From Candidatus Bathyarchaeota archaeon RBG_13_38_9 (GTDB lineage: Archaea; Thermoproteota; Bathyarchaeia; 40CM-2-53-6; RBG-13-38-9): 35,808 nt of DNA. Where the stretch lies: the NCBI GenBank assembly GCA_001775955.1, contig MEZD01000043.1, positions 43,979 to 79,786 on the forward strand, in the 5' to 3' direction. Below the pieces are notes generated by a model that made no database searches, was not told the DNA's origin, and worked only from the letters and a program-made list of their open reading frames with translations. Position 1 is the first letter of the stretch. Each line of letters starts with the position of its first letter. A program made the position numbers and the translations under genes. Below are positions 2,171 to 18,502 of this stretch, piece by piece.

Positions 2171-4345
2171 ATGAGTTTGACTATCGAAGAGACAATGCTA
2201 TGGATAGTCATTGCAACGGCTCTTGGCGCATTAATATATGCGGTATTGCTCGCACGTCAGACACTTAAAGAAAAAACTGGAACGGGGAAGATGCTCCAAG
2301 TATGGAGGGCCATATCGGAGGGAGCAAATGCATACCTTAAAAAACAAATCAAATCCATTTTGCTTATTATTATTGTATTAGCAGTTGTTCTCTACTTATC
2401 TTCAGTTCTCGTTGGTGGGCCACCATCAATTGCAATTGGAAGAGCACTGGCCTTCGTTATGGGAGTCGCTTTTTCTGGAATGGTTGGCTTTATTGGAATG
2501 AATATGGCGGTAAAAGGTAATATCAGAGTTGCTGAGGCAGCTCGACGAAATTTTCATGATGCTTTGAGAATAGCATATCGCTCTGGAACAATCACAGGGA
2601 TGTTAACAGATGGTCTTGGGCTGCTTGGTGGTACAGCAATCTTCATGATTTATTTCAGAGATGCACCAGAGGTATTGTTAGGCTTTGGTTTCGGTGGCAC
2701 TCTTATTGCACTATTCATGCGGGTCGGAGGTGGGATATATACAAAAGCAGCAGACGTGGGCGCAGACCTTGTAGGAAAAGTTGAGAAAGGCATCCCAGAG
2801 GATGATCCAAGAAACGCTGCTGTAGTGGCAGATCTGGTAGGGGATAATGTTGGAGATTGTGCTGGGATGGCTGCAGACATATTCGAATCTTATGAAGTGA
2901 CAATAGTCTCAGCGATGATATTAGGACTTGCTTTAACACCATTTGATATCAAATGGATTATTTTCCCTCTTCTTGTTAGAGCTATAGGAGTAGTCAGCAC
3001 AATTATAGGAACTTATTTCGTCTCAATTTGGCCTGAAAAAATTGTTAAAGGTGATGCATTCAAGGCCATGGACTTATCGTACGATTTATCAGCCGCAATC
3101 TCAGTCACAAGTTTCCTCGTTCTCGCACAAGTGTATGTTCAAGATCTTCGTGTTTTTGCGGCTACCGCTGCTGGAGTATTTCTTGCAATAGGATTCAACA
3201 AGATCACAGATCATTTCACAAATCCAAACAAGAAAACAGTAGATGAACTCGCACGTTCATCAAGAACGGGACCTGCCACAGAGATACTTGAAGGATTATC
3301 AATGAGTTTCGAAGCAACAGTATGGAATCTACTAATCATTTGTTTAGCAATAATTGCGTCTGTTTTCTTCTTTTCAGGTTCTTCTGTCATATTCGTGATG
3401 TACGGAATAGCTCTGTCGGGAATAGGTATGCTAACTCTTACAGGGAATAACATCTCAATGGATGCATTCGGCCCGATTGTTGATAATGCAAATGGCATTG
3501 GAGAGATGGCTGGCGTTGAACCAGAAGCAAGAAAGATCTTGGCTGATTTAGATGCTTCAGGAAATACTACTAAAGCCGTAACAAAAGCAATAGCAATAGC
3601 GTCAGCAGTTATTGCCGCAGTCTCTTTATTCGGAGCCTTTGCTGAAACAACTGGCCTTGAAAAAATTGGTTTAAACATCATTGAACCAATAGTTTTTGTT
3701 GGCCTGTTAATTGGCGGAGCGTTACCTTTTCTATTCAGTTCTATTTCTATTCGTGCTGTTAGCCGTGCCGCCGGACACATAATCGAGGAAGTTAGAGAAC
3801 AATTTAAAATCCCTGGCGTTATGGAAGGAACCGTACCACCCAACTACGCACGAGTCGTGACTATCTGCACTGCGGCAGCTCAAAAAGAATTAGTTGGTTT
3901 AGCACTATTAGCAATATTAACGCCTTTAGCAGTCGGATTCTTATTAAAACAAGCCGCACTTGGTGCATTCCTCGCAGGGATCATAGTAACCGGACAATTA
4001 CTAGCAGTTTTCATGGCGACGTCAGGTGGAGCTTGGGATAATGCCAAAAAAAAGATCGAAGATGGATTTTATGGTGGCAAAGGATCTGAGCAACATAAAG
4101 CAGCAGTGGTTTGTGATACAGTAGGTGATCCACTCAAAGATACCTCTGGTCCCGCATTGAATCCTATGATTAAAGTGATTAATCTGGTGGCGCTTATTTT
4201 CGCACCAGTATTATTGCAGTTCTCAGCTATGCCAATTCTAATGACGTTAACTGGCTCCATACTTGTTTTGATACTCGCTATAGTAATTTGGCATGGAAAA
4301 CGAGAAGGAGTTTTTACCAAAAACAGCCTTAACCCAAAGCAATAG
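2171..4345 (+). CDS. hppA: Membrane-bound pyrophosphatase (H+-PPase), K+-independent type
   Basis: 'DVGADLVGKVEKGIPEDDPRNAAVVADLVGDNVGDCAGMAADIFESYE', 'GNTTKAVTK', 'KAAVVCDTVGDPLKDTSGPALNPMIK'; polytopic. Confidence 0.97.
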   Translation: MSLTIEETMLWIVIATALGALIYAVLLARQTLKEKTGTGKMLQVWRAISEGANAYLKKQIKSILLIIIVLAVVLYLSSVLVGGPPSIAIGRALAFVMGVAFSGMVGFIGMNMAVKGNIRVAEAARRNFHDALRIAYRSGTITGMLTDGLGLLGGTAIFMIYFRDAPEVLLGFGFGGTLIALFMRVGGGIYTKAADVGADLVGKVEKGIPEDDPRNAAVVADLVGDNVGDCAGMAADIFESYEVTIVSAMILGLALTPFDIKWIIFPLLVRAIGVVSTIIGTYFVSIWPEKIVKGDAFKAMDLSYDLSAAISVTSFLVLAQVYVQDLRVFAATAAGVFLAIGFNKITDHFTNPNKKTVDELARSSRTGPATEILEGLSMSFEATVWNLLIICLAIIASVFFFSGSSVIFVMYGIALSGIGMLTLTGNNISMDAFGPIVDNANGIGEMAGVEPEARKILADLDASGNTTKAVTKAIAIASAVIAAVSLFGAFAETTGLEKIGLNIIEPIVFVGLLIGGALPFLFSSISIRAVSRAAGHIIEEVREQFKIPGVMEGTVPPNYARVVTICTAAAQKELVGLALLAILTPLAVGFLLKQAALGAFLAGIIVTGQLLAVFMATSGGAWDNAKKKIEDGFYGGKGSEQHKAAVVCDTVGDPLKDTSGPALNPMIKVINLVALIFAPVLLQFSAMPILMTLTGSILVLILAIVIWHGKREGVFTKNSLNPKQ

Positions 4346-4458
4346 AGAAAAAGTTTAAATTCTGATTGATAGTTGAAAACATATTGCGTGAACCCTATCA
4401 TCACATGATTATCCAAGTAAGATACAAATTCTTTAAGTAAATTTTAGGTTGATGTTAC

Positions 4459-4746
4459 TTGTCAGTTGGATCTAAGAAATGTTTTCCCGACTGTGAACTG
4501 TTTAGATGTGAACAAAGAACACTAGTATTTCGAGGCAAAACATCATATTGCAGATTTGCAGATGACGAATGCATACCTCAAAGCTGTAAATATACGAAGT
4601 GTGTCAAAGGCAGATTTCTTCCAAATGGAACATGTGGTCTTAACATGAAAACCCGAGAGCTAGACATTAGACCTGATGAATGCGTGGACCCTATGGAAAT
4701 TCCTAGCAACTTGGCACAGAAAATGAAGAATAGAAGACCTTATTGA
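4459..4746 (+). CDS. Cys-rich small protein, putative metal-binding, unknown function
   Basis: 95 aa ORF with 9 Cys; TTG start; no recognised family. Confidence 0.6.
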   Translation: MSVGSKKCFPDCELFRCEQRTLVFRGKTSYCRFADDECIPQSCKYTKCVKGRFLPNGTCGLNMKTRELDIRPDECVDPMEIPSNLAQKMKNRRPY

Positions 4747-4770
4747 GAGCCTAACAGCACCGCACACGCT

Positions 4771-5664
4771 TTAATCATTTATATCCTTTAGAGACAGCCT
4801 TTGAATTATTTTGACTACTGCAGAATGATCTAGATCTTCGAAGCCGACAGCTTTAGCAGATTCATACATTTGGTGAGCTAAACTCGTCATTGGTAGTGAT
4901 GCATTCATTTGTGACGCAAGACTCATAGCCAATGCAAGATCTTTATGTTGAAGCCATACTTTGAATCCTGGTTCGAAATCATTTTTTATCATTTTAGGTA
5001 ACTTTTGTTCTAATGCCCATGAATTCCCTGCACTTGTCTTTAGGACCTCATAGAGTTTCTCAAGATCGATACCGGTTTTTTTGGCTAGAACAAACCCCTC
5101 ACTTATACCAACAAGGTTGATTGCCACAAGCATGTTATTGATGAGTTTGAAAATTTGACCAGCACCAGTATTTCCAACTTGGTAAATATTTGTACCAATA
5201 GCCTGGAGAACATGTTTACACTCATCTACTTTCTCATTAGGCCCTCCAACCATTATCGAGAGAGTTCCTTTCTCAGCTCCAATTGTTCCTCCACTCACTG
5301 GCGCATCAATGAAGGTGATACTTTTTTGATTGCATTCATCAGAAAATTTTTTTACCGCAGCTGGGTCGATTGTACTTGCATCAATTATTATCCCTCCTTC
5401 AGGTAGACTATGAATAAGACCATTTTCTCCTAGCACTACATACTCAACTTCTTTCGATGATGGAAGGGACAATAATACGATTGTAGATGTGTTTCCTACA
5501 TGTTTAGGAGATTTAGCAGCCTTTGCTCCTAATTTCTCAAGAACTCTGATAGGTTCATCGCGCACATCATATACTGTGAGGTTAAATTTATTTTTCAGAA
5601 GATTTTTACCCATGTTTAGCCCCATAGCACCTAGACCTATCAGTCCAACATCATTATTTCTCAT
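4771..5664 (-). CDS. NAD(P)-dependent oxidoreductase, 3-hydroxyisobutyrate dehydrogenase family
   Basis: 'VGLIGLGAMGLNMGKNLLK' Rossmann; 'FIDAPVSGGTIGAEKGTLSIMVGG'; 'GAGQIFKLINNMLVAINLVGISEGFVLA'. Confidence 0.93.
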   Translation of the reverse strand: MRNNDVGLIGLGAMGLNMGKNLLKNKFNLTVYDVRDEPIRVLEKLGAKAAKSPKHVGNTSTIVLLSLPSSKEVEYVVLGENGLIHSLPEGGIIIDASTIDPAAVKKFSDECNQKSITFIDAPVSGGTIGAEKGTLSIMVGGPNEKVDECKHVLQAIGTNIYQVGNTGAGQIFKLINNMLVAINLVGISEGFVLAKKTGIDLEKLYEVLKTSAGNSWALEQKLPKMIKNDFEPGFKVWLQHKDLALAMSLASQMNASLPMTSLAHQMYESAKAVGFEDLDHSAVVKIIQRLSLKDIND

Positions 5665-5667
5665 AAA

Positions 5668-5856
5668 TTATCTACCACCATATCTTGAACCAGGTGTCTT
5701 TTTCTTCCACAAACCAAATACTCTTTCAGCCAGACCTTTATGTCGTAACTCCCACGACATGTGTTTATCATAACAATCTGAACACATTTTTTTTTGACAA
5801 TATCTGCAAGTCTTGAGGTTTTCGTAATTTCCTCTGCATTCTTCACAAGCAGCCAT
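5668..5856 (-). CDS. Small zinc-finger protein (B-box/treble-clef-like)
   Basis: CEECRGNYENLKTCRYCQKKMCSDCYDKHMSWELRHKG; Cys pairs plus His; ATG start; 4 bp from the downstream dehydrogenase gene. Confidence 0.65.
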   Translation of the reverse strand: MAACEECRGNYENLKTCRYCQKKMCSDCYDKHMSWELRHKGLAERVFGLWKKKTPGSRYGGR

Positions 5857-5927
5857 TAATATACACTTTGATTATTTGTTGAATATGAATAGAGGTAAGG
5901 GCATAATTAAGAGAATGGTGCTTTTAA

Positions 5928-6710
5928 TTATTCTTCTTGTTTTTTCGCTTTCCTAGCAAATGTCAAGTATCCAGTATGCCCAACCATGTGTGTCTCAGGC
6001 CTTGATTTTCCATCCTCTATCCGAATACGACGTAGTAACAGCTCGATTGTTTCGATGGCTAGAAAACCTTCATTTTTCATAGTAGAAACAGCTTTTTCAA
6101 CTTGGTTAATAGTGGGACTGAAGGAAGCCAGATTTGACCCATCTTCCAGGGATTTAAATGCATGCGGTATAACATTCCATGGATCGCCTAAATCTAGAAA
6201 TACAGCATCAACCTCAGATTCTTCGAAACCGCGCCGTGCATCTGAACATTTGATTGTTACATATTTCAGTAGGCCAACTTTGGAAAGATTCGATTTTGCG
6301 TTTTCCGCAAAATCTTTGTTCACCTCATACGAGTATACATGACCATCTGGTTTTACGATATTTGCAAGGGAAGCGGTAACAACTCCACTTCCCGTACCTG
6401 TTTCGATTACTCGCATTCCCGGTTCTACTCCCAACTTGAACAGAGTGAACCCGATGTCCTTGTCATAAAGTATCTGCGTAGGTCTTCTAAATGTCTGGAT
6501 TTTATCATAGAATGAGGGTTTTAGAATGTACAACCTATGTCCAGTTGTCGTGACTACTGAATCTCCAAATTTTTTCCCTAATATTTCAGATGTTTTTACT
6601 ATTCCTTTGTGAGTGTGAAATTCTTCTTTATCTAAAAGATGAATCAACCAATTTCTTCTATTATCAAGCCATAAAAGAATATACATTCCAATTTTTATCT
6701 TTTGATTCAA
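5928..6710 (-). CDS. trmI: tRNA (adenine-N1)-methyltransferase, archaeal TrmI-type
   Basis: 'FRRPTQILYDKDIGFTLFKLGVEPGMRVIETGTGSGVVTASLANIV' SAM motif; 'DAVFLDLGDPWNVIPHAFKSLEDG'; TTG start. Confidence 0.88.
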   Translation of the reverse strand: MNQKIKIGMYILLWLDNRRNWLIHLLDKEEFHTHKGIVKTSEILGKKFGDSVVTTTGHRLYILKPSFYDKIQTFRRPTQILYDKDIGFTLFKLGVEPGMRVIETGTGSGVVTASLANIVKPDGHVYSYEVNKDFAENAKSNLSKVGLLKYVTIKCSDARRGFEESEVDAVFLDLGDPWNVIPHAFKSLEDGSNLASFSPTINQVEKAVSTMKNEGFLAIETIELLLRRIRIEDGKSRPETHMVGHTGYLTFARKAKKQEE

Positions 6711-8005: not shown

Positions 8006-9631
8006 TCAAGTAGCTTTTTTTAGAGTTTTTGAGACTATGTAGTTAGATCTAGGGAATGCCCAAAAAGAGAAAACTTTTAGATAGTTTATTCCAGCGGCTT
8101 GTCTTAGATTTTCCGAATTACCTTGTTCACTATATCCATGAATAAAAGATTCAGTCAATTGTTTCATTTTATCGCCATATGGGGTCGAATAATGTGCTGA
8201 AAAATATAGAAAAACTGCAATATCCCAAGCAAAATCTCCACCTTTCTTCGCCTGCTCCAAATCTAAAATGAAAACTTTACCTTCAGCATTTCTAATGAAG
8301 TTCTCAGGTTTACTATCTCCCAGTTGAATACCCAGCGTATGTACTTTTGCAATATTACGCCCAACATCTGATATACTTTCATAAAGACTCTGTTCATGTC
8401 TTTTTTTACTTACAATTTTTTTAATAATATCAACAACTGAAATACCATCAACATATTTCTCAATCAAAATTCTATCAGAAATGCTAATGTGAAATATCTC
8501 TGGTACATTCACAAAGTTTTTTTGTAACAAATGATTTATTCCAAATTCATTTGTTAATCTGGCTTTACCGGAAACAAAAAATGATTTTGTCCCAAGCGCT
8601 ACTAAATTCAGAGTAAACCATTTGAAGCCGTGCCAGTCAGTAAATTTTTTTGCAACAAGCTTCTCTCCATTTGCATGAACAAGATATACTTCATTAAGAA
8701 CACCTCCTAGAGGATTAATGAGTATTCGAGAATCTGGCCTAATTTTCACTATTATCTCTCTAATGTCTCCTCTTGCATCAATAGGTATCAATCCGGTCTT
8801 TGTTTTTAACGATAAATAGATTCTTGGATCTTCCATTTTAGGGCTCTTTGTAGTTAGGACAAATTCGCGTTTGAATTTCGATGCTAGTTCTCTTGATATT
8901 AGTTCAGGTGATACTAATCCTACTCTACCATGCATCAGATATGACGACAAAGCCTTCCTGCTGATTTCGACAACATTTACCACTTTATCTGCAGTGCTTC
9001 GTGAGATGATGTCATCAATGAAATCTTCACCTATGGATATTCCTAAAGACTCGTGGTGTAGGATTCCATCATTTACCAATTGTTCAATTGCACCGTCATA
9101 TCCTGACATAACTTTCTCTATGTTTTTTTTCCGCAAATCACTCCTAAACGTATTTAGATAGCTGTACCTTATTGGCGGGAATGTTTTGGATAATCTCGAT
9201 ATATATGATACTGCAAAATAGTTGGGATCTATAATTATTCCTCTTGATGCTTCACCATATTGTTGAATTATATATTCAATATCTCGTTTAATCACTTCTT
9301 TTTTTAATTCCACTTCCTTTTGTTTTAGATATTCTAAACCCTTCAGGCCAAGATATGGGAAAAGCATTCTACCAGCAACAAAACCACCAAGAGCGCCTTT
9401 TTTTACGTCTAGAATAAAGAGTTCTTCATCAATTGCTAATATTGAAGCCTGATCGCCATTAAATTTCTCAAGATGATATCTGGCACCACCAGGATAATGA
9501 CATATCGCCATACAATCATACAGACTATTCTCTCTCGCGTAACCTGCGACTCTTGATCCGTAGATTAGAGACGCCACAGGATCATATTCTTCAGCAAGTC
9601 CACCTATTAACTCGAGTAGAGAGTTATCCAT
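8006..9631 (-). CDS. Nucleotidyltransferase-like domain fused to Bud32/RIO-like protein kinase domain
   Basis: N-terminal 'YGSRVAGYARENSLYDCMAI' (NTase GS motif); C-terminal 'HTLGIQLGDSKPENFIRNAEGKVFILDLEQA' (kinase catalytic loop and metal Asp), VAxK Lys 'LVAKKF'. Confidence 0.75.
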   Translation of the reverse strand: MDNSLLELIGGLAEEYDPVASLIYGSRVAGYARENSLYDCMAICHYPGGARYHLEKFNGDQASILAIDEELFILDVKKGALGGFVAGRMLFPYLGLKGLEYLKQKEVELKKEVIKRDIEYIIQQYGEASRGIIIDPNYFAVSYISRLSKTFPPIRYSYLNTFRSDLRKKNIEKVMSGYDGAIEQLVNDGILHHESLGISIGEDFIDDIISRSTADKVVNVVEISRKALSSYLMHGRVGLVSPELISRELASKFKREFVLTTKSPKMEDPRIYLSLKTKTGLIPIDARGDIREIIVKIRPDSRILINPLGGVLNEVYLVHANGEKLVAKKFTDWHGFKWFTLNLVALGTKSFFVSGKARLTNEFGINHLLQKNFVNVPEIFHISISDRILIEKYVDGISVVDIIKKIVSKKRHEQSLYESISDVGRNIAKVHTLGIQLGDSKPENFIRNAEGKVFILDLEQAKKGGDFAWDIAVFLYFSAHYSTPYGDKMKQLTESFIHGYSEQGNSENLRQAAGINYLKVFSFWAFPRSNYIVSKTLKKAT

Positions 9632-10015: not shown

Positions 10016-10894
10016 ATGTCAACTTTATTCTCCGTAAAATCATCATACAATCTTAGAATTCAAACTGTAGGAATATTACTAATTCTATTAATCTCAACAC
10101 TAACTTATTCTACTTTAATTTCTAAAGCGAATTCACAATCACCAACGCACTCAGTTTTTGTAGAAATCTTTACAAGCACATGGTGTGACCCATGTCAAAC
10201 AGAGCAATTATTAATTAAAAAAACATTTACGAACGATAGTCATATCGCCCATTTCCTTGTGTATCATCTCCAAGATGTTTGGAGCACAACGGCTTCGGTC
10301 GATAGAGCAAATCAACTAGACTTTCATTTTGTTCCATCACATGCATATGACGGAGGATACTCTAGAACAAGTGGTTCAATTATTAATTCTTCTGAAATAG
10401 AATCACTTACTTACAAAAGTGTTCACTTAATTGAATTAACAGTAACAAAAGTTATTAACGTAAATTTATTGACTACTCAGATTTCGGTAGCTGAAAGAAA
10501 CGGTTATTCTTTTAGTGGAGATGTAGCTGTTTATGCAGTCGAAGACAAGATTTTCCATAATGGAACAGAATGGAATTCTATCTATAGAGATCAAATATTC
10601 AGACAGGGAATTTTTCTAAAACCTAATTCATATGAAGTCCTTTCAGGAAATTGGTCAATACCAGAAGAGAGTATACCAGAAAATATTGAGATTATTGCGG
10701 TCGCATTCGATAAGACTTTAACTGGCAAATATGGACCTTACGCAGTTCAATCTGCTTGTAGCAAGGATAGTGAACTTGCCATTCCTGAATTTGGGACTCT
10801 ATTCCCAATCATTGCAGCATCCACCATGCTAATCACATTTCTAACATTGAAGAGAATTAATTTGAGAAAAAATGGTATTGACTCTAACATCTAA
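10016..10894 (+). CDS. Secreted thioredoxin-fold (Omp28-like) protein with PEF(G)-CTERM-like C-terminal anchor
   Basis: Signal peptide; 'EIFTSTWCDPCQTEQ' CxxC; C-terminus 'IPEFGTLFPIIAASTMLITFLTLKRINLRKN' (PEF motif + TM + basic tail). Confidence 0.75.
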   Translation: MSTLFSVKSSYNLRIQTVGILLILLISTLTYSTLISKANSQSPTHSVFVEIFTSTWCDPCQTEQLLIKKTFTNDSHIAHFLVYHLQDVWSTTASVDRANQLDFHFVPSHAYDGGYSRTSGSIINSSEIESLTYKSVHLIELTVTKVINVNLLTTQISVAERNGYSFSGDVAVYAVEDKIFHNGTEWNSIYRDQIFRQGIFLKPNSYEVLSGNWSIPEESIPENIEIIAVAFDKTLTGKYGPYAVQSACSKDSELAIPEFGTLFPIIAASTMLITFLTLKRINLRKNGIDSNI

Positions 10895-10920
10895 ATGGTC
10901 AACGGGAAGAATACGCGCAG

Positions 10921-13053
10921 ATGAATAAAAAGATCATCGCGAAAGATACTATCCCATTATTAATCGCATTTATAATAGGAATTTTAATTGTCATCCCGCG
11001 TTTATTGCCAGGGATTCCTCAAGGTGTTGATTCTGCCAGTCACCTGAGCAAGATTCTCTTTATGTTCAAATGGTATAATAGACTCGGTTACATTCCTTCT
11101 TGGTTTCCAGATTGGTATTGTGGAACACCTTTTCTCCTATTATATTCACCTTTAAGTTATTTTCTCACATTCGCAATCGCTAATATTGGAAAAGATGCAG
11201 TAAGCGCTTACAAGTTCATAGACACCATTTTTTTTCTTGTAACTCCCATTACGGTATATCTACTGGGTCGAGAACTTAGATTAAGTATTAGAGAGGCTTC
11301 TTGGAGTGCATTAATTTTTGGATTGACTCCAACAGTTATTGGAAATTATATTTTTTATGATAGATTCCCAAACATCATTGCTTTGCCAATCATATGCTTA
11401 TTACTAGTTACTTTCATTCGCATGTTATCTAAGAAATCAATGATATGGTTCGTCTATTCAATTTTACTTCTCGGGACAGTTATTCTCACTCATCATCTCT
11501 CAGCATTAATAACATTCTTTATCTTATTATTGGCGTTTTTGTCACTTACACCTTCATTTACTGAGTTCAAATTAAATTTACTCAAATTTTTAGGTGTAAT
11601 TTTTGGCGGAATTGCATTGACAAGTTTTTGGTTAATCAATTTCATTCAAGCTTCTTCTCAAATCTCAGATAACCCATTTTATAATAGGACGATGGAATTC
11701 CCCTTCATCAAATTATCCTATGCTTTGTATGATTATCTAATTCTAGAACAAGGAATAATTCATTTTATCTTGGCGATTAGCGCCATTTTCCTTTGGGTTT
11801 CCAAAGATTTTAAAAAATCAGCAATTGTTTTCGCCCTTGTTTTGCTATTCTTAGGCATGTCATTTTTTGAAATTGGATATCAAACTTATCTTAATATCCA
11901 AATGATTGGACAAGCGCTTGTAATAATCGCACTTATTTTCATGGCAGGTTTAGTAATATTTAGGACTCGAAGAAGTGAATACAATCATTTTACTTTCTTT
12001 CTTGTATTATGGTTTGTATCTTTCTTCTGGCTTGGTCTGGGATATTATGCAATTCCTATTGTGAAGATTCCTTTATTGCAAGCCATTTGGAGAAGCCTTG
12101 ATGTATACAGATTCTGGCTATTCCTCAGTCTGCCGATCGCCTTTCTTACTGGTACATTAATCGAAGAAGTTATCTGCAGAATGCGGAGAAACATGAAATT
12201 GTTAATGTTGACAGTTATTCTTCTATTGCTTTTTACTGGTGGAATAGTCAAATCTGTTTATTTACTAAATCAAGACGTTAATCCCCATCTACCTTATACA
12301 GTTCAAAATTCCGACATTCCAATAGAATTACTGGAATATCTACGATTGCAGAATGATTATGGAAGGATTCTGTCTGTCAGATGCCCTATGTGGATATACA
12401 TGATCCCTAGTTATACTGGAAAAAATATTATAGACGGGTGGTATCCTCAAGAAAAACTTATTCTTAGTTTGCTTGAAATAAATGACTATCGGATTAATGA
12501 TTTGGAAACAACAGAAAACAGGGTAGAGGAATGGAAAAAACTCATTGATAAAAATCAAGAGCTTGGGATACATTGGGTAATTGTAGGGAATTCTAATAAA
12601 ACTTTGATTCGAGATCTTACAAATTCGACATTCAAACAAGATGCTTTTATCACTCATGAAGGAGGAAATCTGACTATTTTAAAAAATACCGTCCCCAACT
12701 CTTTTGTTCAATTAATTACTGAAACGGGTAATGTTGATTATGAATTTGACAGGTCTAGTCCAGAAAAAATAAACATTGAGATCATAGATAAATTTTCAAA
12801 CGTTAAAATTTTTGTGAGAGAAGCTTACTACATAGGCTGGATTGCAACAGTCGATAATGATACAACCAGCGTTATGTCTACTTCCAAGGGTTTCGTACTT
12901 ATTACCACAGAACCAAGCCCCGCTCAGGTTACTTTGGAATATACTAAATCCGACAATCCATACATCTGGCTATCTTTGCTAATGATTGGCTTAATCATTC
13001 TACTTTTAATATACTCAAGAAAATGTACAAATAACTTGATGGAAATAATATGA
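10921..13053 (+). CDS. Polytopic membrane protein, GT-C/6-pyruvoyl-tetrahydropterin synthase-related type
   Basis: Many TM helices; 'LPGIPQGVDSASHLSKILFMFKWYNRLGYIPSWFPDWYCGTPFLLLYSPLSYFL' typical of PTPS-related/GT-C-like proteins. Confidence 0.7.
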   Translation: MNKKIIAKDTIPLLIAFIIGILIVIPRLLPGIPQGVDSASHLSKILFMFKWYNRLGYIPSWFPDWYCGTPFLLLYSPLSYFLTFAIANIGKDAVSAYKFIDTIFFLVTPITVYLLGRELRLSIREASWSALIFGLTPTVIGNYIFYDRFPNIIALPIICLLLVTFIRMLSKKSMIWFVYSILLLGTVILTHHLSALITFFILLLAFLSLTPSFTEFKLNLLKFLGVIFGGIALTSFWLINFIQASSQISDNPFYNRTMEFPFIKLSYALYDYLILEQGIIHFILAISAIFLWVSKDFKKSAIVFALVLLFLGMSFFEIGYQTYLNIQMIGQALVIIALIFMAGLVIFRTRRSEYNHFTFFLVLWFVSFFWLGLGYYAIPIVKIPLLQAIWRSLDVYRFWLFLSLPIAFLTGTLIEEVICRMRRNMKLLMLTVILLLLFTGGIVKSVYLLNQDVNPHLPYTVQNSDIPIELLEYLRLQNDYGRILSVRCPMWIYMIPSYTGKNIIDGWYPQEKLILSLLEINDYRINDLETTENRVEEWKKLIDKNQELGIHWVIVGNSNKTLIRDLTNSTFKQDAFITHEGGNLTILKNTVPNSFVQLITETGNVDYEFDRSSPEKINIEIIDKFSNVKIFVREAYYIGWIATVDNDTTSVMSTSKGFVLITTEPSPAQVTLEYTKSDNPYIWLSLLMIGLIILLLIYSRKCTNNLMEII

Positions 13054-14306
13054 AAACAAACGAACAGTCTGAACCAGTGGATTTGAAGAGATACGAACAT
13101 TTTACTCTTCGCATATTCTATCTTTTTACTGCGGGATTTCTGTTTTATGAGAGTTTTCAAAATTGGCTAAGAGGCAAAATAGAAACTCACCCTGAGGTCG
13201 TTGTACTTTGTGTAATAGGTTATTCGCTAGCACTATTCCTTATGACAGCTTCATTGTCTTCTATCAAAATTTTACAAAAATTTAAGATCATACCTCTAAT
13301 AGCACTATTATTAATCATGTCGTCTAGCATCTATGTGATAGCAGAGATTCAATACACTGGAGTCTATAGAACAGACTCAATGGCTTTCACACACTATGCA
13401 TCACAACTATGGCTTTTCCCCTCTTGGAATCCTTATGGTCACGATCTTCAGATAGCTTTGGAAATGTTTACTGTAGATGTAGATTATGTTACATTGAAAC
13501 CAGATGGAGATCTGGTTACGAACCTGAACTATCCAGCGCTTCACTTACTATTTTTCACACCTTTTGCATATTTTGGATTGCAGGATATGAGATGGGTCAC
13601 ATTCATTTTTGCAATAGCGATAATTTTAATTCTCTATTGTAAATCACCCTCCGAAATTAGACCTTTAGTTCTAATTCCTTTCTTTGCCGGGGTTGATCTG
13701 GCGATAAATTTCACAGCAGGGTGCCTAAACGATTTTCTATGGGTACTTCCGCTTATTATTACTGCATTTTATATTGGCAATCCACTAATTGCAGGATTAT
13801 CATTTGGATTAGCAAGTGCAGTTAAACAACAACCATGGATCCTTTTTCCATTTCTATTAATATATATTTGGAGATCTGGAGAATATGCTGGAAAGAAAAA
13901 GACAAAATCAATTCTCATGTTTACCACCTCAACAATAGTTGGTTTCTTACTACCCAACATTATTTTCATCTTAAAAGATCCTAAATCATGGTTATCTGAT
14001 GTCACAACTCCTTTTTCCGGTCAATTGATTGTAATAAGCCAGGGACTATCTACAATAACTCAATCTGGATATGTGCCTCTTTCAAACAATTTCTATTTCT
14101 TTTTTGCAGTGTCAATTTTTTTCCTTCTTTTAATATATTACAATCTATACTTTGAAGATCTAAAATATGCGATTTGGGCCTTTCCAGCATTGATATTATG
14201 GTTTTCACCTCGCGGACTCCAGAATTACTTTATTTATCTAATCCCAATATGCCTCGTTGCAATCGTGACATGGTATAAAGCATCATTTGGGCGTGACCTA
14301 AAATGA
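13050..14306 (+). CDS. GT-C-like (mannosyltransferase-type) membrane glycosyltransferase
   Basis: Start overlaps upstream stop (ATGA); polytopic; first-loop 'TGVYRTDSMAFTHYASQLW', 'NLNYPALHLLFFTPFAYFG'. Confidence 0.65.
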   Translation: MKTNEQSEPVDLKRYEHFTLRIFYLFTAGFLFYESFQNWLRGKIETHPEVVVLCVIGYSLALFLMTASLSSIKILQKFKIIPLIALLLIMSSSIYVIAEIQYTGVYRTDSMAFTHYASQLWLFPSWNPYGHDLQIALEMFTVDVDYVTLKPDGDLVTNLNYPALHLLFFTPFAYFGLQDMRWVTFIFAIAIILILYCKSPSEIRPLVLIPFFAGVDLAINFTAGCLNDFLWVLPLIITAFYIGNPLIAGLSFGLASAVKQQPWILFPFLLIYIWRSGEYAGKKKTKSILMFTTSTIVGFLLPNIIFILKDPKSWLSDVTTPFSGQLIVISQGLSTITQSGYVPLSNNFYFFFAVSIFFLLLIYYNLYFEDLKYAIWAFPALILWFSPRGLQNYFIYLIPICLVAIVTWYKASFGRDLK

Positions 14307-15013
14307 ATACAGTGAACCGCCGACGTTTGACATATATCACTTTGATTTTATTCATACTGATAATCGGAATATCGTTTTTTCAAAATCTTGGTAAATCTCA
14401 AGATTTTCCTCTTATTCTTAATCCAAAATTCAAATACTTTACAAAAGATCCACAGACTGGAATGCAAAGGCCGTTCTTATGGGAAGCCACATACACATTA
14501 GGCCCAAATGATTCAGGTTTTCTTAGACGTGATATTGTGGCAGATAATGAGTGTTTGGGCCTTCATTTATACCAAGATGGCGCTAATGATACATACGCTT
14601 GGGCCAATATTCATGTCAAACAGGCGATAAGAGGATCAGATGTATCAAAACTTCTAAGATCAGATGTTTCATTCTGGATTTACCCAACTTTTAGCTTTGT
14701 TCACGATATAAATTCAAAAGAGCCTTGGAATATTTTTGGTTTAGAGGTAAACGATGGTGCCCACATAATATGGTTCATCTTTTCAGATTCTGCTGAACAA
14801 ACGTACCAATTACGAAATCACAGAATAGTTCATACAAATTTGCCACTCAATCAGTGGTCATATGTCAAACTTGATATAGCCAAAGAGTACGCCAAGGCTG
14901 GTTGGGAAGAACCTTCTGATCTGTCATTTATCCTTATATGTGGAGCTACAAAAATGACTCCTGGAACCTATGCTGGGTATTTCCGTGAAATTGATGTATA
15001 TGCCGGACAATAA
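14303..15013 (+). CDS. Signal-anchored extracellular beta-sandwich-like protein, unknown function
   Basis: ATGA overlap with upstream gene; N-terminal TM 'YITLILFILIIGISFF'; remainder soluble, Trp/aromatic-rich, LamG/CBM-like feel. Confidence 0.6.
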   Translation: MNTVNRRRLTYITLILFILIIGISFFQNLGKSQDFPLILNPKFKYFTKDPQTGMQRPFLWEATYTLGPNDSGFLRRDIVADNECLGLHLYQDGANDTYAWANIHVKQAIRGSDVSKLLRSDVSFWIYPTFSFVHDINSKEPWNIFGLEVNDGAHIIWFIFSDSAEQTYQLRNHRIVHTNLPLNQWSYVKLDIAKEYAKAGWEEPSDLSFILICGATKMTPGTYAGYFREIDVYAGQ

Positions 15014-15096: not shown

Positions 15097-15786
15097 ATGT
15101 TTGGTCGCATCAAAAATAAATTCTCCTATAAGAAAGAACTTTTTTCTGACTTGTGGCATGTAGCAGTTGTCTTGGTAGTCTGTTCAATAATTTTGGCCTT
15201 TACTCCTGCACCAGCATATTTGGTATTCATTGGAGGGGCCATCATGATATCAATATTCATTCTTCCAAGGATTAGAAGTATAACCAACCAAATTTATTCC
15301 CTTTTATCGTGGATATTCGGAACCACTGCTGTTCTAGTGCTAGTGCTCTACGCTGTAAGAACAACTTTCCCCTACATAGTTGGGGATAATCTCGTATTGG
15401 TACAGGTTGAAGTTGTCCCCGGCATATTTATGAAGCCTATAACCATTTTCATGTTTTCTTTCTTCCTATGGTTTATATTTGGATTGTATACGCCATCATC
15501 TATAAGCCGCTTCGAACAGATGCTCCCAGAGGTTCGAAGACTTCTATATTCATTTGCTTGGTTCGGGGTATTGGCTAGTGGCTTTGAAATAATATATCAC
15601 ATAGTGGTTTGGACGGCAGCATTATCCGTGCAGGGTCTACAAAATCCCGATATTATAGTTAATCCCTGGCCTTTGCGAAGTATGACTCCAATAAATATTG
15701 TTTTTGCAACAAAGCTAGTATTTCTAATATTTGTAATATGCTGTTTTATGATAGACTATATCAAAATGATAGATTCTAAAGGGTAG
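15097..15786 (+). CDS. Polytopic membrane protein, unknown function
   Basis: 229 aa, about 5-6 predicted TM helices; ATG start. Confidence 0.6.
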   Translation: MFGRIKNKFSYKKELFSDLWHVAVVLVVCSIILAFTPAPAYLVFIGGAIMISIFILPRIRSITNQIYSLLSWIFGTTAVLVLVLYAVRTTFPYIVGDNLVLVQVEVVPGIFMKPITIFMFSFFLWFIFGLYTPSSISRFEQMLPEVRRLLYSFAWFGVLASGFEIIYHIVVWTAALSVQGLQNPDIIVNPWPLRSMTPINIVFATKLVFLIFVICCFMIDYIKMIDSKG

Positions 15787-15852: not shown

Positions 15853-17736
15853 TTGAATCGAATGATCTTAGTTGCGCTTTTTTCAATTCTGTCATTACTA
15901 CCGATAGATGCTACATTAGCGCAACAGAGGGTCGATTCAACGGAGACAGTTGATCTGTACGCTCATACAGACTATACCATGGGCGTTAAAGGTGGAAGAA
16001 TACTAAGTACTGCTCCGCCATACGGGGAAAGTCGTTCGGCTCTTCTCGACAGAGAGATTAATTTCACTTTGTATCCAACATTAACCAGAGACATAAAGCT
16101 AGAAGGATCTGTAAACTATAGAATTCATTTACGTTCACCAGTGAAAAGGACTGTTAATCTAAATGTTTCATTGTACGAAATAGGAACTGAAACTGAGATA
16201 AAACAGGTCTCCAGTGCTCTGATCGCATTACCAGTTGAAGACAAGATTAACAAATACGTCCTTGGAATCCCTATAAGTCACACATTCCAAAACGAATCAA
16301 CAATTCTGTTCTCTATCGAACCAGATCCTGATATCCAATCACTGACATTGTATTGGGATGGTGAGAAGACTGCAACATCAGTATCTTTACCAATACCACT
16401 GGAAGAAACTTTCAACATATTTGATTTAGAAATTCTTGACTCCAAAGACATACCACTGAAAGGAGCGAACGTTACTATACTTGTTGATAATAGGCGCATT
16501 TGGACAGGCAGAAGTAACTCTATTGGCGAGATTAGAGCTTTAGTTCCAAAATCAGGAGATACAGTTTATGAATTCATTGTGATTTGGAAAAGTATCATCG
16601 CTAATAGAACACTTTATCACACTTCAGAAAATCTTGATATTCAGATTCGTTGTACTGTATATAGCCTTGAATTATTGGTAAGAGATCTACTTGGTTTCCC
16701 AGTTGAAGAAGCGAAAGTGGTCTTATTAAGAAATGATTCTATTGTTGACCAAGGAAACACAACAATTGAGGGTAGAATCAGTTTTCTCCAACTTCCTGGA
16801 TCTCAGTATAAAGTTCAGATTAGTAGAGAACTTTTGATTCTTTTTGTTCCGATTTCTGTTTCAAATGATTTTGATATTCAGTTGTCCTCTGATGCGAGCA
16901 GAGAGATTGTGTTGCGTATCGTCAAACCTTGGATGATAAACTCCGTATTGTTGATACTCATCATTCTAACATCATCATTATTGGCTTTGAATCTTTTCAG
17001 AAAAAGGAAAAAAGGATTCCGCGAGTATGATTTTGAATATTTCTATAAAATGGTGGGTGGCGATATTTCATCATCCTCATCAGTTATGATATCTGGATTA
17101 CCTGGATCAGGTAAAACAGTTATCCTTGCCCATTTTCTAATTAAGAGTCTAAGAAGTGGAAAACCCTGTATTTTTATCGTTAATTTAGATTTTCCATCTA
17201 ATTTACGAGAATATCTAAAAGGTTTTGAACCTGATCTAGAGAAATATGAAAAATCTTCAAAACTAATCTTTATAGATGGCTATTCAGCTTCTGGCGGAAA
17301 GGAGTCTTCTGAAAAACATCAGATATCTTCAATGGGGGACCTTACTGGACTCGGTGTACAACTTTCTTCTTGTCTTGAAGAATTAGGCCAAGATACTGAT
17401 GTTTTCTTAGATTCATTAACCCCGTTATTTACAATGCTTAGAGATGAGTATATCGCCAATTTCATTCATTCAGTCGGTGCTAAAACCAAAGGTGTTAATG
17501 GAAGATTTTTCTACACCACAGGATCAGCAGTTGGAAGAAAAGGTCTTAATGCTATAGAGGCCCTCTGCGACAGTGTGATTGAGTTATCTTCTACCGATGA
17601 AGCTGGCGAATATCAGAGAAAATTACGTATTAAGAAAATGAGAAGGAAACATTTTGAAAGGTGGATCGACTTCAGGGTAGACGGTGATAAAGGCATCATG
17701 TTTAGAACTAGAAACTCGCGAAAGTCCAAACTATAA
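15853..17736 (+). CDS. Transmembrane protein: signal peptide + extracytoplasmic beta domains + TM + cytoplasmic KaiC/FlaH-like ATPase
   Basis: Signal 'MILVALFSILSLLPIDATLAQQ'; TM 'WMINSVLLILIILTSSLLALNLFRKRKK'; Walker A 'GLPGSGKT' (nt 17095-17118); Walker B 'VFLDSLTP' (nt 17401-17424). Confidence 0.8.
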   Translation: MNRMILVALFSILSLLPIDATLAQQRVDSTETVDLYAHTDYTMGVKGGRILSTAPPYGESRSALLDREINFTLYPTLTRDIKLEGSVNYRIHLRSPVKRTVNLNVSLYEIGTETEIKQVSSALIALPVEDKINKYVLGIPISHTFQNESTILFSIEPDPDIQSLTLYWDGEKTATSVSLPIPLEETFNIFDLEILDSKDIPLKGANVTILVDNRRIWTGRSNSIGEIRALVPKSGDTVYEFIVIWKSIIANRTLYHTSENLDIQIRCTVYSLELLVRDLLGFPVEEAKVVLLRNDSIVDQGNTTIEGRISFLQLPGSQYKVQISRELLILFVPISVSNDFDIQLSSDASREIVLRIVKPWMINSVLLILIILTSSLLALNLFRKRKKGFREYDFEYFYKMVGGDISSSSSVMISGLPGSGKTVILAHFLIKSLRSGKPCIFIVNLDFPSNLREYLKGFEPDLEKYEKSSKLIFIDGYSASGGKESSEKHQISSMGDLTGLGVQLSSCLEELGQDTDVFLDSLTPLFTMLRDEYIANFIHSVGAKTKGVNGRFFYTTGSAVGRKGLNAIEALCDSVIELSSTDEAGEYQRKLRIKKMRRKHFERWIDFRVDGDKGIMFRTRNSRKSKL

Positions 17737-17740
17737 CGAA

Positions 17741-18502
17741 CTAGGTCGGTTGACTTTCAAATACACGATCTTTAGGATAGACCTCTATTCCCTTTGACGT
17801 TATTTGGTAAGGCCTAAGTTGAGCGTCATGTGCTATTCCCCGCATTTTCTCCACCTGAATAGCTCGTATAACCGTTCCTGCGTGAACCATTGTATGCATA
17901 AGGATCACTCCTTGGGAGAGAAATTCTTCCAACTGAAATGATCGGCTAAGCATACCAGTTCTCAATTCCGTACTTACAAGCGATGTGCAACCTGAATTGA
18001 TTAAAGAATCAAAGAAAGTCAACAATGCTCTTCTCTTCTTGAATGTCGCATCATATCGAAGCATAATAGAAGTTACAGGATCAACCGCAATTCTCTGTAT
18101 GTCTTCCTCTTTTACAATTTTTGTAATAGTCTCAACCAGAAATCTAACAGTAATTTTAGGTTCTGAAGAGTCTTCGAATTTCGAAGAAACTAGAACATTA
18201 TTTTTTCGGATCCCTCCTTGCCTTAGCATTGTAGCATCTAAAAAGAGAATTTCACCATTTTTTTCCAGCCCCTCAATATCCCATCCAAATGAAGACAAGT
18301 TAGTTTTGACTTGTTCAGGAGTTTCATCCATTGCCACATATAATCCACGCTCATCAGCTTTTGCACCGCTTGTCAAAAACTGCATTTGAAGAATTGTTTT
18401 TCCTGCGCCTGGACTGCCTACCACAAGAACGCATTTTCCTTTAGGAAGACCCCCTCCAAGTAATTCATCTAAACCTTTTACCCCAGTCGAAATGAGTTGC
18501 AT
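17741..18502 (-). CDS. KaiC/RAD55-family RecA-like ATPase, single domain
   Basis: 'STGVKGLDELLGGGLPKGKCVLVVGSPGAGKTILQMQFL', 'RIAVDPVTSIML', 'MRGIAHDAQLRPYQITSKGIEVYP'. Confidence 0.9.
   Translation of the reverse strand: MQLISTGVKGLDELLGGGLPKGKCVLVVGSPGAGKTILQMQFLTSGAKADERGLYVAMDETPEQVKTNLSSFGWDIEGLEKNGEILFLDATMLRQGGIRKNNVLVSSKFEDSSEPKITVRFLVETITKIVKEEDIQRIAVDPVTSIMLRYDATFKKRRALLTFFDSLINSGCTSLVSTELRTGMLSRSFQLEEFLSQGVILMHTMVHAGTVIRAIQVEKMRGIAHDAQLRPYQITSKGIEVYPKDRVFESQPT

Follow-up and report, generated by a model that had tools for sequence, protein, structure and literature searches.

The window, i.e. the whole stretch of 35,808 nucleotides that has been analysed here, contains a gene that raises the following question: what does an ATPase domain of the KaiC family do at the membrane, when it is predicted to be preceded by a signal peptide, a large secreted ectodomain and a single transmembrane (TM) helix? 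A sequence-only reading of this DNA had left two answers side by side, a receptor-type ATPase that couples the outside to the inside, or a motor of surface assembly. We have addressed the question through structure prediction, the comparison of homologues across the order of the window and beyond, the residues of the nucleotide site, and the genes that accompany the membrane KaiC gene.

Architecture, topology and conservation of the membrane KaiC protein

The features of the locus are listed below, with their positions in the window.

10016-15013, + strand: upstream genes of the run (thioredoxin-like secreted protein with an IPEFG tail, PTPS-related membrane protein, GT87-like protein, secreted jelly-roll-like protein)
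15097-15786, + strand: six-TM protein directly upstream of the membrane KaiC gene, found at the locus in families f1, f2 and f6
15853-17736, + strand: membrane-anchored KaiC-family protein, a single unbroken ORF of 627 aa counted from TTG
15862-15921, + strand: signal peptide (MILVALFSILSLLPIDATLA), an N-terminal hydrophobic stretch with a helix at residues 3-14 in the AF2 model
15940-16395, + strand: ectodomain 1, jelly-roll β-sandwich, PepX_C-like (the C-terminal domain of CocE/X-Pro peptidases), from the model, Foldseek and PF08530
16411-16653, + strand: ectodomain 2, CarboxypepD_reg/CnaB-like β-sandwich, from the model, Foldseek and Pfam matches in homologues
16657-16911, + strand: ectodomain 3, CarboxypepD_reg/CnaB-like β-sandwich, from the model, Foldseek and PF13620 (residues 275-325, E=5e-5, under its cut-off)
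16927-17007, + strand: single TM helix, residues 359-385, with the basic cytoplasmic flank RKRKK, from AF2 and the topology tests
17017-17712, + strand: cytoplasmic KaiC/RecA domain, residues 389-620, from PF06745 and the Foldseek match to 2dr3
17095-17118, + strand: Walker A, GLPGSGKT, residues 415-422, with the Lys present in 24 of 24 membrane-clade members
17188-17190, + strand: Asp446, at the position of the second KaiC catalytic glutamate (Glu in 3 of 24 membrane members)
17410-17412, + strand: Walker B Asp520 (DVFLDS, residues 516-521), conserved in 24 of 24
17635-17637, + strand: Lys595, at the position of the KaiC inter-subunit K-x-R finger, Lys in every sequence of all groups
17741-18502, − strand: soluble canonical single-domain KaiC partner of 253 aa (PF06745, E=3e-58), convergent with the membrane KaiC gene and 4 bp from it

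The ATG at position 15862 (MILVALFSILSLLPIDATLAQQ...) is a more natural start than the TTG at position 15853, and is likely the true one. The full-length AF2 model (mean pLDDT 82.5, from an alignment of nine orthologous sequences) consists of three β-sandwiches at residues ~32-180, 187-267 and 269-353, a helix at residues 359-385 that is followed by the segment FRKRKKGFR, and a RecA/KaiC fold at residues 389-620; when the ectodomain is modelled alone, the pLDDT is 89 and the pTM 0.81. The Foldseek matches of the ectodomain are of two sorts: the CocE/X-Pro peptidases, of which PepX_C is the non-catalytic jelly roll, and Ig/CnaB-like domains of surface proteins and pilins (TIE, SdrD, SpaA). The PepX_C model (PF08530) is matched in 2 of 21 homologues and the CarboxypepD_reg model in 14 of 21, and, from the alignment lengths and the Pfam positions, we infer that the jelly roll is the N-terminal sandwich, while the CnaB-like folds are the other two. 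An ectodomain of about 330 β-rich residues with carboxypeptidase-regulatory or Ig-like segments, as read from the sequence alone, is thus what the model contains.

The cytoplasmic domain scores over the curated cut-off of PF06745 (91 bits against 26.6, E=9.3e-26), as it does in all 21 members; its best fold match is PH0284 (2dr3; E=2e-16, TMt 0.82-0.84), with KaiC CI also matched (TMt 0.73-0.79). The structure search has therefore returned the expected combination of a KaiC fold (TMt 0.84 to 2dr3) and a β-sandwich ectodomain.

The signal peptide and the TM helix have been called from hydropathy and AlphaFold, and the orientation of the protein has been assessed through two statistical signatures in 41 homologues. 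The number of Lys and Arg per 12 residues is 4.5 after the TM helix and 1.0 before it, a difference that has the same direction in 41 of 41 homologues. The density of N-X-S/T sequons per 100 residues is 2.35 in the outer part, where 1.20 would be expected from shuffling, and 0.13 in the inner part, where 0.37 would be expected; in the window protein, the ectodomain has seven such sites against 2.3 expected (p ~0.002), and the inner part has none. As the basic charges and the glycosylation sequons are distributed in this manner, an orientation with the N-terminus outside and the C-terminus inside is supported as a prediction. The proposed succession of signal peptide, ectodomain, one TM helix with a basic tail and KaiC domain agrees with the model and with both signatures, and the predicted layout is that of a transmembrane receptor, i.e. 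a secreted N-terminus, one TM helix and a cytoplasmic effector domain.

A frameshift or an assembly fusion, which the sequence-only reading had named among the possible refutations of this architecture, is ruled out: G002, a separate assembly, has an orthologue with 90% identity over 626 of the 627 residues, each of the six families of the order contains full-length orthologues of the same architecture, and the dN/dS ratio (0.18-0.20, i.e. about 0.19) is alike in the ectodomain, the TM segment and the KaiC domain. At the locus L150 3179-4905, from G033, a frameshift splits the membrane KaiC gene, which is possibly an assembly error or a pseudogene.

Outside the order, families f11 and f21, which belong to the same class, have proteins of this layout that are mostly larger and that, in the two members scanned, contain PKD repeats; in another class of the phylum (G350/L144, positions 3984-6479), a KaiC domain of the membrane-clade kind carries a fused six-TM domain. 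When the class and the phylum were scanned, full scoring was limited to the three or four best candidates of each genome, so that the counts given for lineages beyond the order are minimum values. A spread to another phylum, through a contig labelled Candidatus Njordarchaeum guaymaensis (L062 1-6277, JAUQYT010000004.1, 6.3 kb), has been set aside: this contig is collinear with the Bathyarchaeota locus L060, has 66-71% nucleotide identity to it and an equal G+C content (0.49), and is thus probably a misbinned Bathyarchaeota contig.

The nucleotide site and the soluble KaiC partner

In a tree of 83 hand-picked KaiC domains (quick search, support by SH-aLRT only, with the paralogue L075_6 on a long branch), a long branch (0.98, SH-aLRT 100) separates a clade of membrane KaiCs, f3 TM paralogues and a few soluble relatives from all the other sampled KaiCs; a second clade unites the soluble partners found in the window's order (18 of 18 sequences, support 98). 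The residue counts have also been obtained from a hand-picked sample. All 24 main membrane members have the Walker A lysine, the Walker B aspartate and the finger lysine, and the Walker A and finger lysines are also invariant in the partners; the second catalytic glutamate, by contrast, is retained in 3 of the 24 membrane members (it is lost in 21, with Asp in 13), as opposed to all 24 partners and 22 of the 23 other soluble KaiCs. In the window protein, the catalytic pair is Leu445-Asp446 and not a pair of glutamates. The ATPase that had been described as intact does keep its Walker A and Walker B motifs, but, with Asp446 at the position of the catalytic glutamate, its site is not fully so. 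From the established chemistry of KaiC, the membrane protein would be expected to bind ATP and to hydrolyse it weakly; some of the membrane members may nevertheless hydrolyse ATP, since three keep the glutamate and thirteen have an aspartate.

Family f3 presents a variation of its own. Its genomes (L075-L081, L084, L087) have many further TM-KaiC paralogues, several of which are without the Walker A lysine; in the seven that have been sampled, the catalytic glutamate is gone in all and the Walker A lysine in three, and no soluble KaiC is adjacent to any of the f3 TM-KaiC paralogues fetched.

The soluble KaiC at positions 17741-18502, which had been overlooked in the sequence-only reading, is the direct, tail-to-tail neighbour of the membrane KaiC gene in 29 of 30 cases, counted over the distinct genes of the main type in the order, and the gap between the two is -20 to +27 bp; in a genome with 11-12 KaiC domains, as counted in two genomes of the order, an adjacent KaiC would be expected by chance for ~1% of genes. 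The exception is G014, where the two genes are 95 kb apart, but both are retained. The partner scores 391-449 bits against its own profile, compared with at most 276 bits for the other KaiCs of the order (the exceptions being G002 and G034, where it is split by contig ends or gaps), and, with these split copies included, it is present in 35 of the 38 genomes of the order. The three genomes that do not have it (G025, G030 and G036) are also missing the main membrane KaiC, a co-absence that is weak alone, because all three are incomplete; in G029 and G033, the partner is retained beside a truncated or split membrane gene. A scan of the convergent region with a sigma-70-type promoter model, which does not cover archaeal promoters, has given nothing beyond chance.

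The association also extends outside the order: in f11 and f21, the partner is adjacent in seven of seven cases, two of which have it upstream on the same strand, while in G350/L144 a canonical soluble KaiC lies upstream on the same strand, in tandem with the six-TM-KaiC fusion. That the orientation varies while the adjacency is kept speaks for a link that is functional and not just inherited. What is exchanged between lineages is the outer part (jelly-roll/CnaB-like sandwiches, PKD/CARDB repeats or a six-TM module); both the KaiC part and the soluble KaiC neighbour are retained. Identity to the window copy is 53-74% for the partner and, outside the genus, 25-52% for the membrane protein, whose outer part is the least conserved; this gradient is the pattern that fits a variable input joined to a fixed transducer. 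Soluble KaiCs of the divergent kind also adjoin canonical KaiCs (L145 5066-7081, L085, L088); the one in L145 has an N-terminal stretch that resembles a winged helix, and may be a cytoplasmic version of this pairing.

Gene neighbourhood and the alternative readings

The membrane KaiC gene is the last of six genes on the same strand, with gaps of -4 to 83 bp. The first product of the run (positions 10016-10894), a secreted thioredoxin/Omp28-like protein, ends in IPEFGTLFPIIAASTMLITFLTLKR, an IPEFG motif followed by a TM segment and a KR tail, resembling a PEF(G)-CTERM sorting signal; its orthologues end in IPEFR or IPEFG. An archaeosortase gene (PF09721; E=5e-51 to the thaumarchaeosortase model TIGR04297, under its strict cut-off) is adjacent to the membrane KaiC gene in f4 and f6, within ~7 kb of it in f2 and at ~9 kb in G017 (f5); the genomes concerned hold only one or two such genes. 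The archaeosortase loci of these four families are L040 10998-12071, L041 10959-11999, L042, L043, L044, L047 and L146.

Two further neighbours recur. On the opposite strand of the window (8006-9631, − strand) lies a Bud32-like kinase that carries a fused nucleotidyltransferase-like region at its N-terminus; in all six families, a relative (in f3, the kinase part only) occurs at most ~8 kb from the membrane KaiC gene; Peptidase M6 proteins, similar to immune inhibitor A, are found near it in f1 and f4 (L041 12078-15200, L036 5253-6404). A defence system has been rejected, as the PADLOC matches are weak and limited to the P-loop.

In bacteria, co-polymerases of the Wzc/BY-kinase type combine an outer domain, TM segments and a cytoplasmic P-loop protein near sugar-polymer genes. 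The membrane KaiC could be read as their analogue, i.e. as a regulatory or coupling subunit of surface-glycan or S-layer assembly that times the adjacent glycosyltransferases and the archaeosortase; the GT-C/GT87-like membrane enzymes of the six-gene run, the archaeosortases described above and an N-terminal jelly roll that may bind sugars all speak for such a role. The resemblance to Wzc is an analogy only, as both the outer domain and the P-loop family are different, and no Wzz-like domain has been matched. Moreover, the archaeosortase is on another contig in f1 and absent from f3, and the loci of f11 and f21 are without glycan genes, and still the KaiC pair persists. An archaeosortase as an obligate partner is thus rejected: since it is elsewhere in f1 and missing in f3, the surface-assembly context is common but not obligatory, and the constant companion of the membrane KaiC is the soluble KaiC. 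We consider a role in glycan assembly unlikely, though worth keeping in mind.

The two remaining alternatives are divided by the state of the nucleotide site. An inside-out motor, in which ATP hydrolysis by the KaiC domain would act through the helix to assemble or move a surface structure, would draw on the conserved P-loop, Walker B and finger lysine, and on the precedent of ArlH, a KaiC-family member of the archaellum motor complex (PMC8978795); the loss of the catalytic glutamate in most members weighs against it, a single TM helix is an unlikely platform for the transmission of force, and we find this reading very improbable. In particular, a component of an archaellum motor is ruled out by score and by context: the window protein reaches 25.9 and 27.3 bits with the curated ArlH/FlaH models (NCBIfam), whose cut-offs are 215 and 194, and no gene of the ArlI/ArlJ type has been recognised among the annotated neighbours in the loci scanned. 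The partial decay of the same site would suit a structural anchor, in which the ectodomain would link membrane and S-layer while the KaiC domain would only dock a soluble partner, and CnaB-, SdrD- or pilin-like and PKD domains are indeed common in structural surface proteins; yet anchoring alone does not require the Walker A, Walker B and finger residues that are invariant in the 24 main members, and such an anchor seems improbable. Between the receptor and the motor of the sequence-only reading, the evidence hence favours the former, given an outer part that varies while the KaiC domain and its partner are kept.

A proposed two-subunit switch and its relation to known systems

The reading that we prefer, to which we give an even chance of being right, is that the pair constitutes a membrane switch made of two KaiC-superfamily subunits, a putative receptor-type, ATP-binding one and an active soluble KaiC. 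The ectodomain, probably glycosylated, would read or bind something at the cell surface, possibly through the outer jelly-roll domain, which is similar to folds in which sugar binding is frequent; the single helix would pass the state of the ectodomain to the cytoplasmic KaiC domain, which would bind ATP and hydrolyse it poorly; this domain would then join a ring with the soluble, catalytically complete KaiC, or nucleate one at the membrane, and the output would be the ATPase or autokinase activity of the soluble KaiC, or its release. The mixed ring, the direction of signalling, the ligand and the output are presumptive, gene adjacency being no proof of a complex. A surface-responsive switch that forms a mixed KaiC ring is nonetheless the simplest account of a variable outside module, a conserved partner and an impaired nucleotide binder that keeps the residue directed at the neighbouring site; a point against it is that, with a surface-assembly neighbourhood, the pair could serve export and not sensing.

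More tentatively, and with more doubt than confidence, we suggest that the pair represents a class of transmembrane receptors of archaea that has so far gone undescribed, where a hydrolysis-impaired membrane KaiC controls a dedicated, active soluble KaiC, with exchangeable inputs (β-sandwiches, PKD repeats or polytopic modules) and a lineage-specific expansion in f3. If true, this would be a KaiC-based counterpart of the sensor kinase and response regulator. Two-component systems are few in many archaea, for which KaiC-like ATPases have been put forward as the main hubs of signalling, with no obvious entry for an external signal; a transmembrane KaiC that is conserved and has a soluble KaiC of its own would provide such an entry point, and raises the question of whether archaeal KaiCs form mixed rings of active and impaired subunits under the control of the cell surface.

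The suggestion that the protein may be undescribed holds to the following extent: neither an ectodomain-TM-KaiC protein nor its KaiC gene pair is described in the literature searched, a body of work to which the main 2017 study of archaeal KaiC diversity does not belong, whereas KaiC signalling hubs and inactivated KaiC domains have already been proposed in archaea, according to PMC5847659, which cites Makarova 2017. The DUF7504 model (PF24336) matches the window protein (45.2 bits, cut-off 27) and all 21 aligned members (E<=0.01); it spans only a part of the KaiC domain, has no assigned function and includes no ectodomain.

Among the characterised relatives, the single-domain archaeal KaiC-like ATPases PH0284 (2dr3) and SSO2452 (2w0m) share with the window protein the RecA/KaiC fold (TMt 0.84, 25% identity), the Walker A and B motifs and the K-x-R finger; both are soluble, while the window protein adds a signal peptide, an ectodomain and a TM helix, and the catalytic glutamate pair that PH0284 keeps is replaced. 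The canonical clock KaiC has two tandem KaiC domains and the glutamate pair, as opposed to one domain (residues 389-620) without the pair. The inactivated KaiC-like domains (iKaiCs) of archaeal signal transduction, as presented in PMC5847659, are divergent KaiCs with impaired catalytic residues and an attached input module; in the membrane clade, which may or may not belong with them, the catalytic glutamate is lost (21 of 24) and Walker A and B are intact. Among the iKaiC fusions reported there are those with REC and HalOD1 domains, whereas the window protein has a secreted ectodomain, an intact Walker A and a dedicated active partner gene. By analogy, the nearest functional precedent for a membrane KaiC switch is ArlH/FlaH, a KaiC-like protein that binds ATP without hydrolysing it and is a putative switch of archaellum assembly (PMC8978795); ArlH is encoded in arl loci and has no ectodomain, while the membrane KaiC carries one.
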